From the NCBI RefSeq assembly GCF_014643735.1, contig NZ_BMKA01000002.1, positions 310,001 through 374,000 on the forward strand: a stretch of DNA of 64,000 bases, written 5' to 3'. Both the position numbers and the translations under genes were made by a program. This DNA is from Neptunicoccus cionae. Lineage in GTDB: Bacteria; Pseudomonadota; Alphaproteobacteria; Rhodobacterales; Rhodobacteraceae. The notes beneath the pieces are model-generated. The model saw nothing but the letters and a program-made list of their open reading frames with translations, searched no databases and had not been told where the DNA came from. How positions within the stretch are numbered: position 1 is the stretch's first letter; the number at the start of each line of letters is the position of its first letter. Positions 4,845-34,467 of the stretch are shown in pieces.

Positions 4845-5214
4845 GAGAACCTCTCCGCGATAAATCCCTGCGCGTTTTCAAAACACCTCATCATGCAACG
4901 AGTCGCTTGGCAATTCGCAAAAGCCGCGAATCCCGAACAAGCGGGTGTGGGGGGTGGAAACGTCCCGTCACTTGCTGTGATCACAAAAACTGCAGCACCC
5001 CATGCTAACCCTGCGTAAATAACTGGCAGTGCCCTTCAGTTTTGCCCCGTGAAGACGCAACCCTAGCGCAAGAGCCTTATTTTCAAGGAAAACTGCCTTT
5101 CCATTTATGCATACCCCCTTTGCGTAGAGATGCGTTGTATCCAAGCGGGGGAATTCATATTGTTGCATTGCAGCAAGAAATTCTGCGCTGCAGCAAAAAC
5201 GAAGGAAAGTCGAA
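4845..5214. other. gene-free divergent promoter region
   Basis: No coding frame in this 370-base gap is convincing. It should hold the EamA gene promoter on one side and the DUF1127/sRNA promoter on the other. The recognisable element is the pair of CTGC-N3-GCAG-like sites at 5163-5193. I could not fix a heat-shock or stress sigma promoter by eye. Confidence 0.6.
5163..5193 (+). promoter_or_regulatory. two PhaR-like sites upstream of the DUF1127 gene
   Basis: TTGCATTGCAG (5163-5173) and CTGCGCTGCAG (5183-5193) have starts exactly 20 bp apart, two helical turns. The second matches the CTGC-N3-GCAG motif reported for the PHA repressor PhaR in Paracoccus and Rhodobacter; the first has one mismatch. 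The same motif precedes phaP at 33227. Control by PhaR is inference. Confidence 0.45.
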
Positions 5215-5445
5215 ATGTCGATCTCTAGCACACACAATGACACAGCACTCGGCGACCTGAAGCACAAGTTCGCCTCTGCGTTTCAAACGATCGCCGAGAG
5301 CTGGAACACGTACCGCCGCAAACGTCAGGCGTACACAACAACTTTTGCCGAGCTCGCAGGCCTCTCCGCCCGTGACCTCGCAGACCTCGGGTTCTCCCGT
5401 GGAGACATCAGACGGGTCGCTCGTGAAGCGGCAGAAATGGTTTAA
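5215..5445 (+). CDS. DUF1127 small protein, CcaF1-like
   Basis: A 76-residue protein whose C-terminal half (about residues 38-70) has the DUF1127 pattern ELAGLSARDLADLGFSRGDI followed by an Arg-rich RRVAREAAE helix. The ribosome site AAGGAAAG lies 8 bases before the ATG. In Rhodobacter sphaeroides the DUF1127 protein CcaF1 is an RNA-binding protein co-transcribed with the CcsR sRNAs under stress sigma factors. The same order is found here: this gene, a second small gene, then three CcsR-like units. A role in sRNA maturation or stability is inferred from that parallel. Confidence 0.85.
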   Translation: MSISSTHNDTALGDLKHKFASAFQTIAESWNTYRRKRQAYTTTFAELAGLSARDLADLGFSRGDIRRVAREAAEMV

Positions 5446-5449
5446 GACA

Positions 5450-5698
5450 ATGAAAACGATTACATACGATAACATCTCTGAATCCGGCTTCGCAGCTGTT
5501 CGGACACGCACAACAGAAGTACTTGCCTCCGGTTGGTCCGCATTCACAGCACGGACTTCCGCGTCCCTGCTGCGCCTGCAAACCTCGCGGATGATCTCTG
5601 CCCTCCAAGGCATGAGCAACGAGCAATTGGACCTGATCGGCATTAAACGCGCTGACATTCCGGCCTACGCACACAAGCTGGTCGTTGAAGAAAACTAA
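5450..5698 (+). CDS. second DUF1127-like small protein
   Basis: An 82-residue protein that starts at ATG 5450, only 4 bases after the preceding stop, so translation is probably coupled. Its C-terminal part (MSNEQLDLIGIKRADIPAYA) resembles the LxxLGI-R-DI core of DUF1127 but lacks the Arg-rich final helix of its neighbour. It may be a diverged duplicate with a different RNA or protein partner. The region upstream of the chosen ATG in the same frame overlaps the first gene and looks non-coding. The sRNA units start 35 bases after its stop. Confidence 0.75.
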   Translation: MKTITYDNISESGFAAVRTRTTEVLASGWSAFTARTSASLLRLQTSRMISALQGMSNEQLDLIGIKRADIPAYAHKLVVEEN

Positions 5699-5732
5699 TT
5701 CGAATAGGCGCCTGTCCTTTCAGGCACCTGAT

Positions 5733-5811
5733 ACAAAACGGTCGTTCCTCCCAGATCCCGTTTCGTAAAGATACCGGCCCTTCTACCCTCCTCCCAGAGG
5801 GGCCGGTATTA
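5733..5811 (+). ncRNA. CcsR/cuckoo-type sRNA, unit 1
   Basis: Two hairpins are visible. The first (5733-5766) has arms ACAAAACGG and CCGTTTCGT with one mismatch and TTCCTCCC in its loop. The second (5771-5809) has a 14-bp stem with one G-U pair and shows CCTCCTCCC (5787-5795) in its loop. This double anti-Shine-Dalgarno hairpin is the hallmark of the CcsR/cuckoo RNA family, known downstream of a DUF1127 gene in Rhodobacter. No T-run follows, which fits release by processing of a longer transcript. It is the most divergent of the three units. Confidence 0.8.
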
Positions 5812-5824
5812 AAACACAACCGAA

Positions 5825-5903
5825 TACCGCGCGGTCGTTCCTCCCAGATCCCGCATGGTACAGACGCCGGTCCCTCTACCTCCTCCCAGAGGGACCGGTG
5901 TTC
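5825..5903 (+). ncRNA. CcsR/cuckoo-type sRNA, unit 2
   Basis: Begins 93 bases after unit 1 by alignment of the shared first-loop block. Hairpin 1 is 5825-5860 with TTCCTCCC in the loop; hairpin 2 is 5864-5901 with a 14-bp stem and CCTCCTCCC at 5879-5887. The AU-rich linker to unit 3 (TTCAAATATAACC) is a plausible RNase E cleavage site. Confidence 0.8.
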
Positions 5904-5916
5904 AAATATAACCGAA

Positions 5917-5994
5917 TACCGCGCGGTCGTTCCTCCCAGATCCCGCTTGGTACAGACACCGGTCCCTCTACCTCCTCCCAGAGGGACCGGTGTC
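5917..5994 (+). ncRNA. CcsR/cuckoo-type sRNA, unit 3
   Basis: Nearly identical to unit 2 with a 92-base period. Hairpin 1 is 5917-5952, hairpin 2 is 5956-5993 with a perfect 14-bp stem, and CCTCCTCCC is at 5971-5979. Near identity to unit 2 points to recent duplication or gene conversion. The sequence ACTCCTCCCTAG follows at 5995-6006, but without a hairpin. Confidence 0.8.
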
Positions 5995-6110
5995 ACTCCT
6001 CCCTAGTCCCATTATCTACTGAAGCGCGCGTTCCCACAGACTGCGTTAATAACTTCCGTCCGGTTCTTTCGAATGCTACATGCTTGGGACAACCAACAGG
6101 AACCGGCCTT

Positions 6111-33226: not shown

Positions 33227-33266
33227 CTGCGTTGCAGCATAAAATTGTTGAAATGCCGCAACGCAG
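33227..33266 (+). promoter_or_regulatory. PhaR-type operator upstream of phaP
   Basis: CTGCGTTGCAG (33227-33237) fits CTGC-N3-GCAG, and CCGCAACGCAG (33256-33266) is its inverted copy with one change. They lie between phaC and phaP. In Paracoccus and Rhodobacter PhaR binds such TGC-rich sites to repress phaP until polymer is made. Confidence 0.65.
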
Positions 33267-33332: not shown

Positions 33333-33758
33333 ATGGCAAACCAAGACTTCGATTTCGCTAAAGCAACTGAAGAATTCTTCGCTGCTTTCAAAATGGACAC
33401 AAAGATGTTTGACGACGCGACTAAGAACGCCGCTGAATTCAACGTCAAAATGGGCAAGATTGCACTGGCTGCTGCTAAGAGAAACGCAGAACTGACCAAC
33501 GCATGGACTGCTGAAACTCTGAAAACTGTTGAATCAGCAAACAAGGTTCAAAAAGATCCTTCCGCTTACACAACAGTTGCTTCTGATTTCGCATCCGCAC
33601 AAGCACAGTCCCTGCCCGAAAAACTGGCTGCTTACGCTGAAGTTGCAAAAGCTGCTCAACTCGAAGCTGTTGAACTGTTCGTTGCCGCTGGCAAAGACAT
33701 GCAAGCTGAAGTTGCTGCTGCAACTAAAGACGTTACAGCAAAAGCAAAAGCTGCCTAA
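33333..33758 (+). CDS. phaP: phasin, PHA granule-associated protein
   Basis: A 141-residue, Ala- and Lys-rich, wholly helical protein with a phasin_2-like pattern (FAKATEEFFAAFKMDTKMFD at the start, EVAAATKDVTAKAKAA at the end). Phasins coat PHB granules and control their size and number. The ATG follows AAAGGATC by 7 bases. PhaR-type sites lie 70-105 bases upstream, and a strong terminator follows. Codons are strongly biased, as expected for an abundant protein. Confidence 0.93.
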   Translation: MANQDFDFAKATEEFFAAFKMDTKMFDDATKNAAEFNVKMGKIALAAAKRNAELTNAWTAETLKTVESANKVQKDPSAYTTVASDFASAQAQSLPEKLAAYAEVAKAAQLEAVELFVAAGKDMQAEVAAATKDVTAKAKAA

Positions 33759-33906: not shown

Positions 33907-34467
33907 ATGACCAACACGATTTTGATCAATCGCTACGCCAGCCGACGGCTGTATAACACGCAGACCAGCGAATATGTTACGCTGGACGAGATAGCGGAGC
34001 TGATCAAACAGGGCAACGATGTCGAGATCAAAGACCGCAAAAGCGGTGAAGATCTGACCCGTCAGTTTCTGCTGCAAATTATCACCGAACAGGAAAGCAA
34101 GGGCGAAAACGTATTGCCTGTCAATGTGTTGACGGGGCTCGTGCGGTCCTACAGCACCGCCGCTCAAGGGGTGCTTCCGGATTTCCTGTCAAAATCCTAC
34201 GAAATGTTTTCCGAACAGCAGGCCGCCATGATGGAACGCATCCCTGGCATTGGGTCCGGAATGGCATCTGGCACCAACTGGCAAAAACAGCAGGCTGATC
34301 TGATGCAATCCATGATGGCTGCGTGGATGCCGCAAATGCAAAACAGTGCTGCTGCACCGCAACAAGACCCTGCCCCAGAAGCGGACCCGAAAACCGAAAC
34401 GGACGAAGAACTCTCTGCTGTGAAACAACAGCTGGCAGAGCTGATGAAAAAAGTTGAAGGACTTTAA
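33907..34467 (+). CDS. phaR: PHA synthesis repressor PhaR
   Basis: A 186-residue protein with the PhaR/PHB_acc_N DNA-binding domain at residues 5-65 (INRYASRRLYNTQTSEYVTL) and a PHB-accumulation domain after it, ending in an acidic coiled tail. PhaR binds DNA and nascent PHB granules, and releases phaP and its own gene when polymer forms. CTGC-N3-GCAG sites are visible before phaP, and similar ones before the DUF1127 gene at 5.2 kb. It is monocistronic after the phaP terminator. Confidence 0.95.
   Translation: MTNTILINRYASRRLYNTQTSEYVTLDEIAELIKQGNDVEIKDRKSGEDLTRQFLLQIITEQESKGENVLPVNVLTGLVRSYSTAAQGVLPDFLSKSYEMFSEQQAAMMERIPGIGSGMASGTNWQKQQADLMQSMMAAWMPQMQNSAAAPQQDPAPEADPKTETDEELSAVKQQLAELMKKVEGL

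Follow-up and report, generated by a model that had tools for sequence, protein, structure and literature searches.

PhaR-type boxes at the promoter of a DUF1127/cuckoo RNA module in Neptunicoccus cionae suggest a LysR-activated, PhaR-repressed sub-type of the locus

Results

Two small DUF1127-type genes precede three cuckoo/CcsR-like RNA units

The window, by which we mean the whole 64,000-nucleotide stretch of Neptunicoccus cionae DNA analyzed here, carries a module of two small protein genes and three RNA units, all running in one direction, with gene 2 placed between gene 1 and the RNAs:

5215..5445, + strand: gene 1, a 76-aa DUF1127 protein with a YRRKR cluster (PF06568, E 4e-11; purifying selection)
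5450..5698, + strand: gene 2, an 82-aa diverged DUF1127-like protein (PF06568, E 0.0015, 18.7 bits)
5733..5812, + strand: RNA unit 1, cuckoo/CcsR-like, two hairpins
5826..5904, + strand: RNA unit 2, cuckoo/CcsR-like
5918..5996, + strand: RNA unit 3, cuckoo/CcsR-like

The two genes are separated by 4 bp, as an earlier note on this DNA had claimed. By family search, the module is flanked by a divergent EamA transporter gene and a Na/H exchanger gene; the start of the latter likewise lies downstream of the module at two further loci (L002 and L003). The PF06568 score of gene 2 is below the Pfam cut-off (18.7 versus 23.3 bits), so the protein is named DUF1127-like only, and neither small protein has an NCBIfam match. 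A homologue of gene 2 in Pseudorhodobacter turbinis is annotated as DUF1127 domain-containing. Relatives of gene 2 at 73–77% identity were found in Neptunicoccus sediminis, Amylibacter cionae, and one Rhodobacteraceae MAG. Both small genes look to be coding, because dN/dS among the window and three relatives is low: 0.19–0.35 in all six pairs for gene 2 and 0.15–0.24 in five of six for gene 1, the sixth value (1.2) being based on just 1.5 synonymous changes.

Gene 2 lacks the YRRKR cluster ahead of the domain and contains 6 Arg in 82 residues, versus 8 in 76 for gene 1. The earlier note had presented it as a second, Arg-poor DUF1127-like gene that was new here. The gene is real, but its Arg-poorness is mild and it is not peculiar to this genome; comparison across related genomes, which the same note had proposed, shows that 18 of the 20 loci with boxes described below have it. 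An amphipathic-helix search gave a best hydrophobic moment of 0.39, within the DUF1127 part of gene 2, from which nothing is concluded.

Cuckoo/CcsR RNAs have a CCUCCUCCC two-loop form. The three units of the window, spaced by 93 and 92 nt, each fold into a shorter first hairpin with a smaller loop containing TTCCTCCC and a second hairpin with a 15-bp stem and a 10–11-nt loop containing CCTCCTCCC. Such tandem two-hairpin RNAs with CCUCCUCCC-type loops correspond to the definition of CIN1/cuckoo-CcsR RNAs. When each unit was compared with 150 dinucleotide shuffles, fold z-scores of −5.0, −5.1, and −6.7 were obtained for units 1, 2, and 3, respectively, which bears out the earlier description of three 92–93-base units with two hairpins and anti-Shine-Dalgarno-type loops. 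Scores with RNA model R1 were 96.5, 97.6, and 102.4 bits, values that are not independent given that the model was built with these same units. Two-sided changes were seen in 13 of 33 base pairs of a 10-sequence RNA alignment and in 7 of 22 pairs of a 13-sequence alignment. No Rfam family matched at its gathering threshold anywhere in the window. The loops, which resemble the anti-Shine-Dalgarno end of 16S rRNA, could mask ribosome-binding sites. The label of "stress" sRNA would apply here by analogy, having been taken over from Rhodobacter.

The number of units varies, with six in Amylibacter cionae and three in each of the other two close relatives. Four of the six (L004, 5273–5821) are nearly identical, which suggests recent copy-number growth.

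A pair of PhaR-type boxes overlaps the predicted transcription start

Upstream of gene 1, the following promoter elements could be delineated:

5099..5111, + strand: T-N11-A dyad TTCCATTTATGCA, probably recognized by a LysR-type activator, 65 bp ahead of the TGC of box 1
5117..5124, + strand: half-site CCTTTGCG adjoining the dyad, a possible LysR activation site (17-nt run invariant in the window and three relatives)
5135..5140, + strand: putative −35 element TTGTAT (TTG in the consensus of the boxed loci)
5158..5163, + strand: putative −10 element TATTGT after a 17-bp spacer (consensus TA..tC, directly ahead of box 1)
5163..5173, + strand: PhaR-type box 1, TTGCATTGCAG
5183..5193, + strand: PhaR-type box 2, CTGCGCTGCAG

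The earlier note had placed two CTGC-N3-GCAG sites 20 bp apart in front of the genes. Two boxes whose starts are 20 bp apart are indeed present, but box 1 begins with TTGC rather than CTGC. A pair at such spacing occurred in none of 100 shuffles of the window. The single box is not rare in itself: YTGCRNYGCAG has 8 matches in the window versus 2.5 expected, and the looser YTGCNNYGCAR has 379–440 forward matches per genome in three relatives, as against 110–125 for a reversed control. The single loose pattern was dropped as evidence because it is too common, and the pair and a binding-site matrix were used instead.

An upstream alignment of the window with three relatives, which had been picked through gene 2 and not through the boxes, extends over ~300 columns at 67% identity overall. 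Its longest invariant run, of 41 nt, spans the −10 element and both boxes. A further conserved block, AAACGTCCCGTCACTTnCTGTGATCACAAA with the palindrome TGTGATCACA (4959–4990), is shared by the same four sequences; it lies ~170 bp upstream of the boxes, closer to the divergent EamA transporter gene.

The boxes resemble published PhaR sites and recur at phaP

Motifs reported for PhaR are CTGCNNNGCAG in R. sphaeroides and YGCRNYGCR in S. meliloti, according to PMC12542648. Both boxes match YGCRNYGCR; CTGCNNNGCAG is matched by box 2 and, save for one base, by box 1. A matrix was compiled from eight S. meliloti sites in that source, seven of them from promoters classed there as efficiently shifted; for the exoL site the shift class is missing, and the first pair is presumed to belong to phaP1. 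Four exoH sites and SMc03880 (weak shift), also printed in the source, were omitted. When all 21-mers of the window were scored, box 1 ranked first (21.6), a box ahead of phaP second (21.0), and box 2 third (19.8), the fourth site reaching 16.4. Thirty 64-kb null sequences from a Markov model contained on average 0.1 sites each with a score of 19.8 or more, and the top null score was 21.7. As this equals box 1, one box alone would be weak evidence; the weight lies with the pair, its place, and phaP.

The phaP box belongs to a PHA locus within the same window, in which phaZ-phaC-phaP-phaR are found (phaZ, phaC, and phaR by family search) and whose phaR lies 28 kb from the module:

33227..33237, + strand: PhaR-type box CTGCGTTGCAG ahead of phaP, used as an internal reference
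33256..33266: weaker partner box CCGCAACGCAG ahead of phaP; the same two-box layout occurs in relatives
33333..33758, + strand: phaP, a phasin by position between phaC and phaR; homologues lie beside phaR in relatives
33907..34467, + strand: phaR, PHA synthesis repressor (TIGR01848 equivalog, E 2.3e-42; PF07879, PF05233)

No Pfam or NCBIfam family matched phaP, which is named by place only. Among the 13 genomes carrying the module, phaP lies beside phaR at 10 of 13 loci (one cut at an edge), and all nine readable phaP promoters carry two boxes 26–30 bp apart, the second often in a loose form. At 5 of 13 phaR loci, a strict box lies no more than 100 bp ahead of the PhaR domain. The phaR gene itself is present in all 13 module genomes and in 44 of 45 further genomes; its co-occurrence with the module is therefore uninformative and was dropped as evidence.

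The box pair marks a subset of DUF1127/cuckoo loci

A gene-2 profile matched 30 of 394 family genomes at E ≤ 1e-5, the weaker matches being perhaps other DUF1127 proteins. At the nine retrieved loci with E ≤ 2e-16, a loose form of the upstream pair was present without exception, whereas among 21 weaker loci a like pair was seen at four (L070, L071, L073, and L074) and 17 were without; GC-rich loose matches at L075 and L083 were left uncounted. Twenty boxed loci were aligned, comprising the window, three members of its clade, a Pseudorhodobacter turbinis plasmid, and 15 others, with the more degenerate pairs of L070 and L074 omitted. As this alignment was anchored on and chosen by the box pattern, the conservation of the boxes within it is partly circular. 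One locus (L135, genome G097) has only one DUF1127-type gene after the boxes.

The strict pair pattern occurs in 39 of 394 genomes versus 7 for a reversed control. Thirty such loci were retrieved: six are modules, one is a stand-alone cuckoo RNA, two are other DUF1127-type genes, and four lie at phasins (two by BLAST, two phasin-like by eye). The remaining 17 are in other or unclear places, many within ORFs, so a pair does not by itself establish function.

At the stand-alone cuckoo RNA (L093, 1373–1453, − strand), a box pair, a dyad, and a divergent LysR gene are present; no protein gene intervenes between RNA and boxes, and the RNA ends in a U-run. The two other DUF1127-type genes (L113 and L117, around 1500; found by regex) have no cuckoo motif and also stand behind CTGC pairs, and PhaR control of DUF1127 proteins may therefore be wider. 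In three genomes (loci L090, L101, and L108), a ribF-like gene (by eye) begins ~470–515 nt away from a box pair, and two of these loci have in common CTGCCNTGCAGCATAGC..ATGCTGCG.TGCAG.

At E ≤ 0.001, RNA models R1 and R2 matched 80 and 39 of the 394 genomes, respectively. Retrieval of 60 cuckoo-model loci, less 15 boxed ones and 6 duplicates, left 39 other cuckoo loci, some of whose weak RNA-model matches may be false. At least three CTCC motifs were present in 33 of these and an upstream DUF1127-type ORF (regex) in 25, and a box pair in none of the 39 distinct loci read. Among them is L134, the second gene-2/cuckoo locus of genome G197, with a gene-2-like ORF and no boxes. Boxed and unboxed cuckoo loci also occur together in G377. 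Genomes G197, G058, and G150 have degenerate boxes, and G275 has none.

A LysR gene accompanies the module, and a LysR-type dyad lies upstream of the boxes

LysR proteins favor T-N11-A sites near −65. The T-N11-A pattern is common, with 16 matches on both strands of the window, and only its fixed place is informative. A dyad TTCC-N5-GGCA or similar was located by regex 65–66 bp ahead of the pair at all 10 boxed loci examined (L162–L171); the window clade has TTCC-N5-TGCA at a distance of 65, and in L135 the distance is 69. The adjoining half-site has the consensus CCt.TGcC over 16 loci. The promoter dyad is likely to be the operator of a LysR-type activator. Dyad, half-site, −35, −10, and boxes over the start follow one another as would be expected of a promoter that is both activated and repressible.

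In 9 of 13 module genomes, as well as on the Pseudorhodobacter turbinis plasmid, a LysR gene (PF00126, PF03466) runs divergently from the gene-2 module, as judged from coordinates. An orthologue at 47–100% identity is present in all 13, the G162 copy having one internal stop. There is no LysR gene within the window; in the genomes of the three relatives it lies elsewhere. Two module-free genomes contained LysR paralogues only (up to 36%), and in 40 genomes chosen for other cuckoo matches, including G118 with its weak gene-2 match, no LysR match above 37% was found. Among five genomes chosen for gene 2 without the strict pair, three have the LysR protein at 44–52%. In G275, LysR and both module genes are kept, together with a site that resembles the dyad (by eye; regex negative), but there are no boxes, and dyad and boxes are thus separable.

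Four Sulfitobacter plasmids (L128–L131) have kept the LysR gene, which now stands before ANTAR and NrtA-type genes. They carry one CTGC box and no module, an arrangement that fits either PhaR or the LysR protein itself as the binder of the box.

Discussion

The sequence supports the genes, the RNA folds, and the boxes, including how well these are conserved and how closely they resemble published PhaR sites. From this we infer binding, repression, PHB release, LysR activation, processing, and targets. The reading that we favor, with a probability of roughly 0.73, is that the module represents a distinct sub-type of the DUF1127/cuckoo (CcaF-CcsR, CIN1) locus that would be activated by a LysR protein, repressed by PhaR, and released upon PHB granule formation. 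The suggestion of the earlier note that the PHA repressor may control the sRNA operon gains strong sequence support from the motif, the matrix, the phaP boxes, and the 20 aligned loci.

Gene 1, gene 2, and the three RNAs would form one transcription unit. A LysR-type activator, encoded apart from the module in the window clade and adjoining it in 9 of 13 module genomes, would bind the dyad near −65 and drive the promoter at ~5135–5163, and PhaR, bound to the two boxes over the transcription start and 5′ leader, would block transcription. PhaR is reported to move from DNA to PHB granules (PMC12542648), and expression of the operon is therefore expected to increase with PHB: as granules form, PhaR would be drawn onto them and the operon freed together with phaP. 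The transcript would then yield two DUF1127-type proteins and three RNAs exposing CCUCCUCCC and able to pair with ribosome-binding sites. The gene 1 product would aid RNA maturation, by analogy with CcaF1 (PMC10253847).

The binder of the boxes could be another protein. If the CTGC boxes were the operator of the linked LysR-type regulator, PhaR would be uninvolved. In favor of this, a LysR orthologue accompanies the module in all 13 genomes, divergent across the boxes in nine, and the LysR gene by the stand-alone RNA (G003) and those on the four Sulfitobacter plasmids have a pair or a box. However, boxes of the same kind precede phaP, both in the window and in all nine readable relatives, and they match the S. 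meliloti PhaR sites. A separate T-N11-A dyad is available to the LysR protein at a distance typical of such regulators, and in G275 the LysR gene, the two small genes, and what by eye looks like a dyad occur with no boxes. On balance, we regard the LysR protein as an improbable owner of the boxes.

A slightly better case, though still an unlikely one, can be made for PhaR as a minor modulator of what is mainly a heat/oxidative stress (RpoH-type) unit, as in R. sphaeroides. TTGTAT-17-TATTGT could suit more than one sigma factor, but a minor role sits poorly with boxes that overlie the predicted start and lie in the longest stretch of unchanged upstream sequence. That the boxes are a product of chance or a relic, functionless in the window genome, we hardly credit. 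Single boxes are frequent (379–440 per genome against 110–125 for the reversed control), and box 1 is equaled by the best of the scores (21.7) from the 30 null sequences; yet chance does not readily account for a 41-nt invariant run where identity over ~300 upstream columns is 67%, for a pair absent from 100 shuffles, or for like pairs at many loci.

That cuckoo RNAs lie behind DUF1127 genes and that PhaR controls the sRNA mmgR is already known. Among the closest known systems is ccaF1-CcsR1-4 (CIN1) of R. sphaeroides, in which a small DUF1127 gene is likewise followed by tandem homologous RNAs; as described in PMC10253847, it has one DUF1127 gene and an RpoHI/RpoHII promoter. Measured against that description, the window module adds a second DUF1127-like gene, a PhaR-type pair, and a LysR-type dyad. 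In Sinorhizobium meliloti, PhaR binds a site in the mmgR promoter in gel shifts, and the sRNA is overproduced without PhaR (PMC12542648). Unlike the window RNAs, mmgR is stand-alone and of another family, and DUF1127 is unmentioned in the parts of PMC12542648 used. The alphaproteobacterial phaP/phaR regulon shares the same boxes, and the single site of SMa1961, located between the −10 element and the start, resembles box 1 in place. The boxes of that regulon flank the −35 element, whereas in the window module the target is an sRNA/DUF1127 unit and the boxes follow 20 bp apart from −10 onward. No published link of PhaR to cuckoo/CcsR RNAs or DUF1127 was found in a literature search that did not extend to the 2015 cuckoo, 2015 CcsR, and 2021 CcaF1 papers.

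The gene atu1667 is of the DUF1127 type. In Agrobacterium and relatives, one LysR protein, VtlR, activates a small-protein gene together with sRNAs, as stated in PMC7486931. The VtlR sRNAs given there are AbcR/VrsA, and the likeness to the window module is one of regulatory layout.

More tentatively, and with greater doubt than we attach to the regulation of the module itself, LysR and PhaR may constitute a family-wide two-input switch that converts stored-carbon status into a burst of anti-Shine-Dalgarno RNA and two DUF1127-type proteins, re-setting the translation of central carbon genes; gene 2, without the Arg cluster, might then act alongside the RNA-binding gene 1 or as its counterpart. 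If LysR activation and PhaR repression of the module hold true, the level of a cuckoo RNA family would depend directly on how full the PHB store is. The cuckoo RNAs would thereby gain a non-stress input, and a testable role would emerge for the LysR gene and for the product of gene 2.
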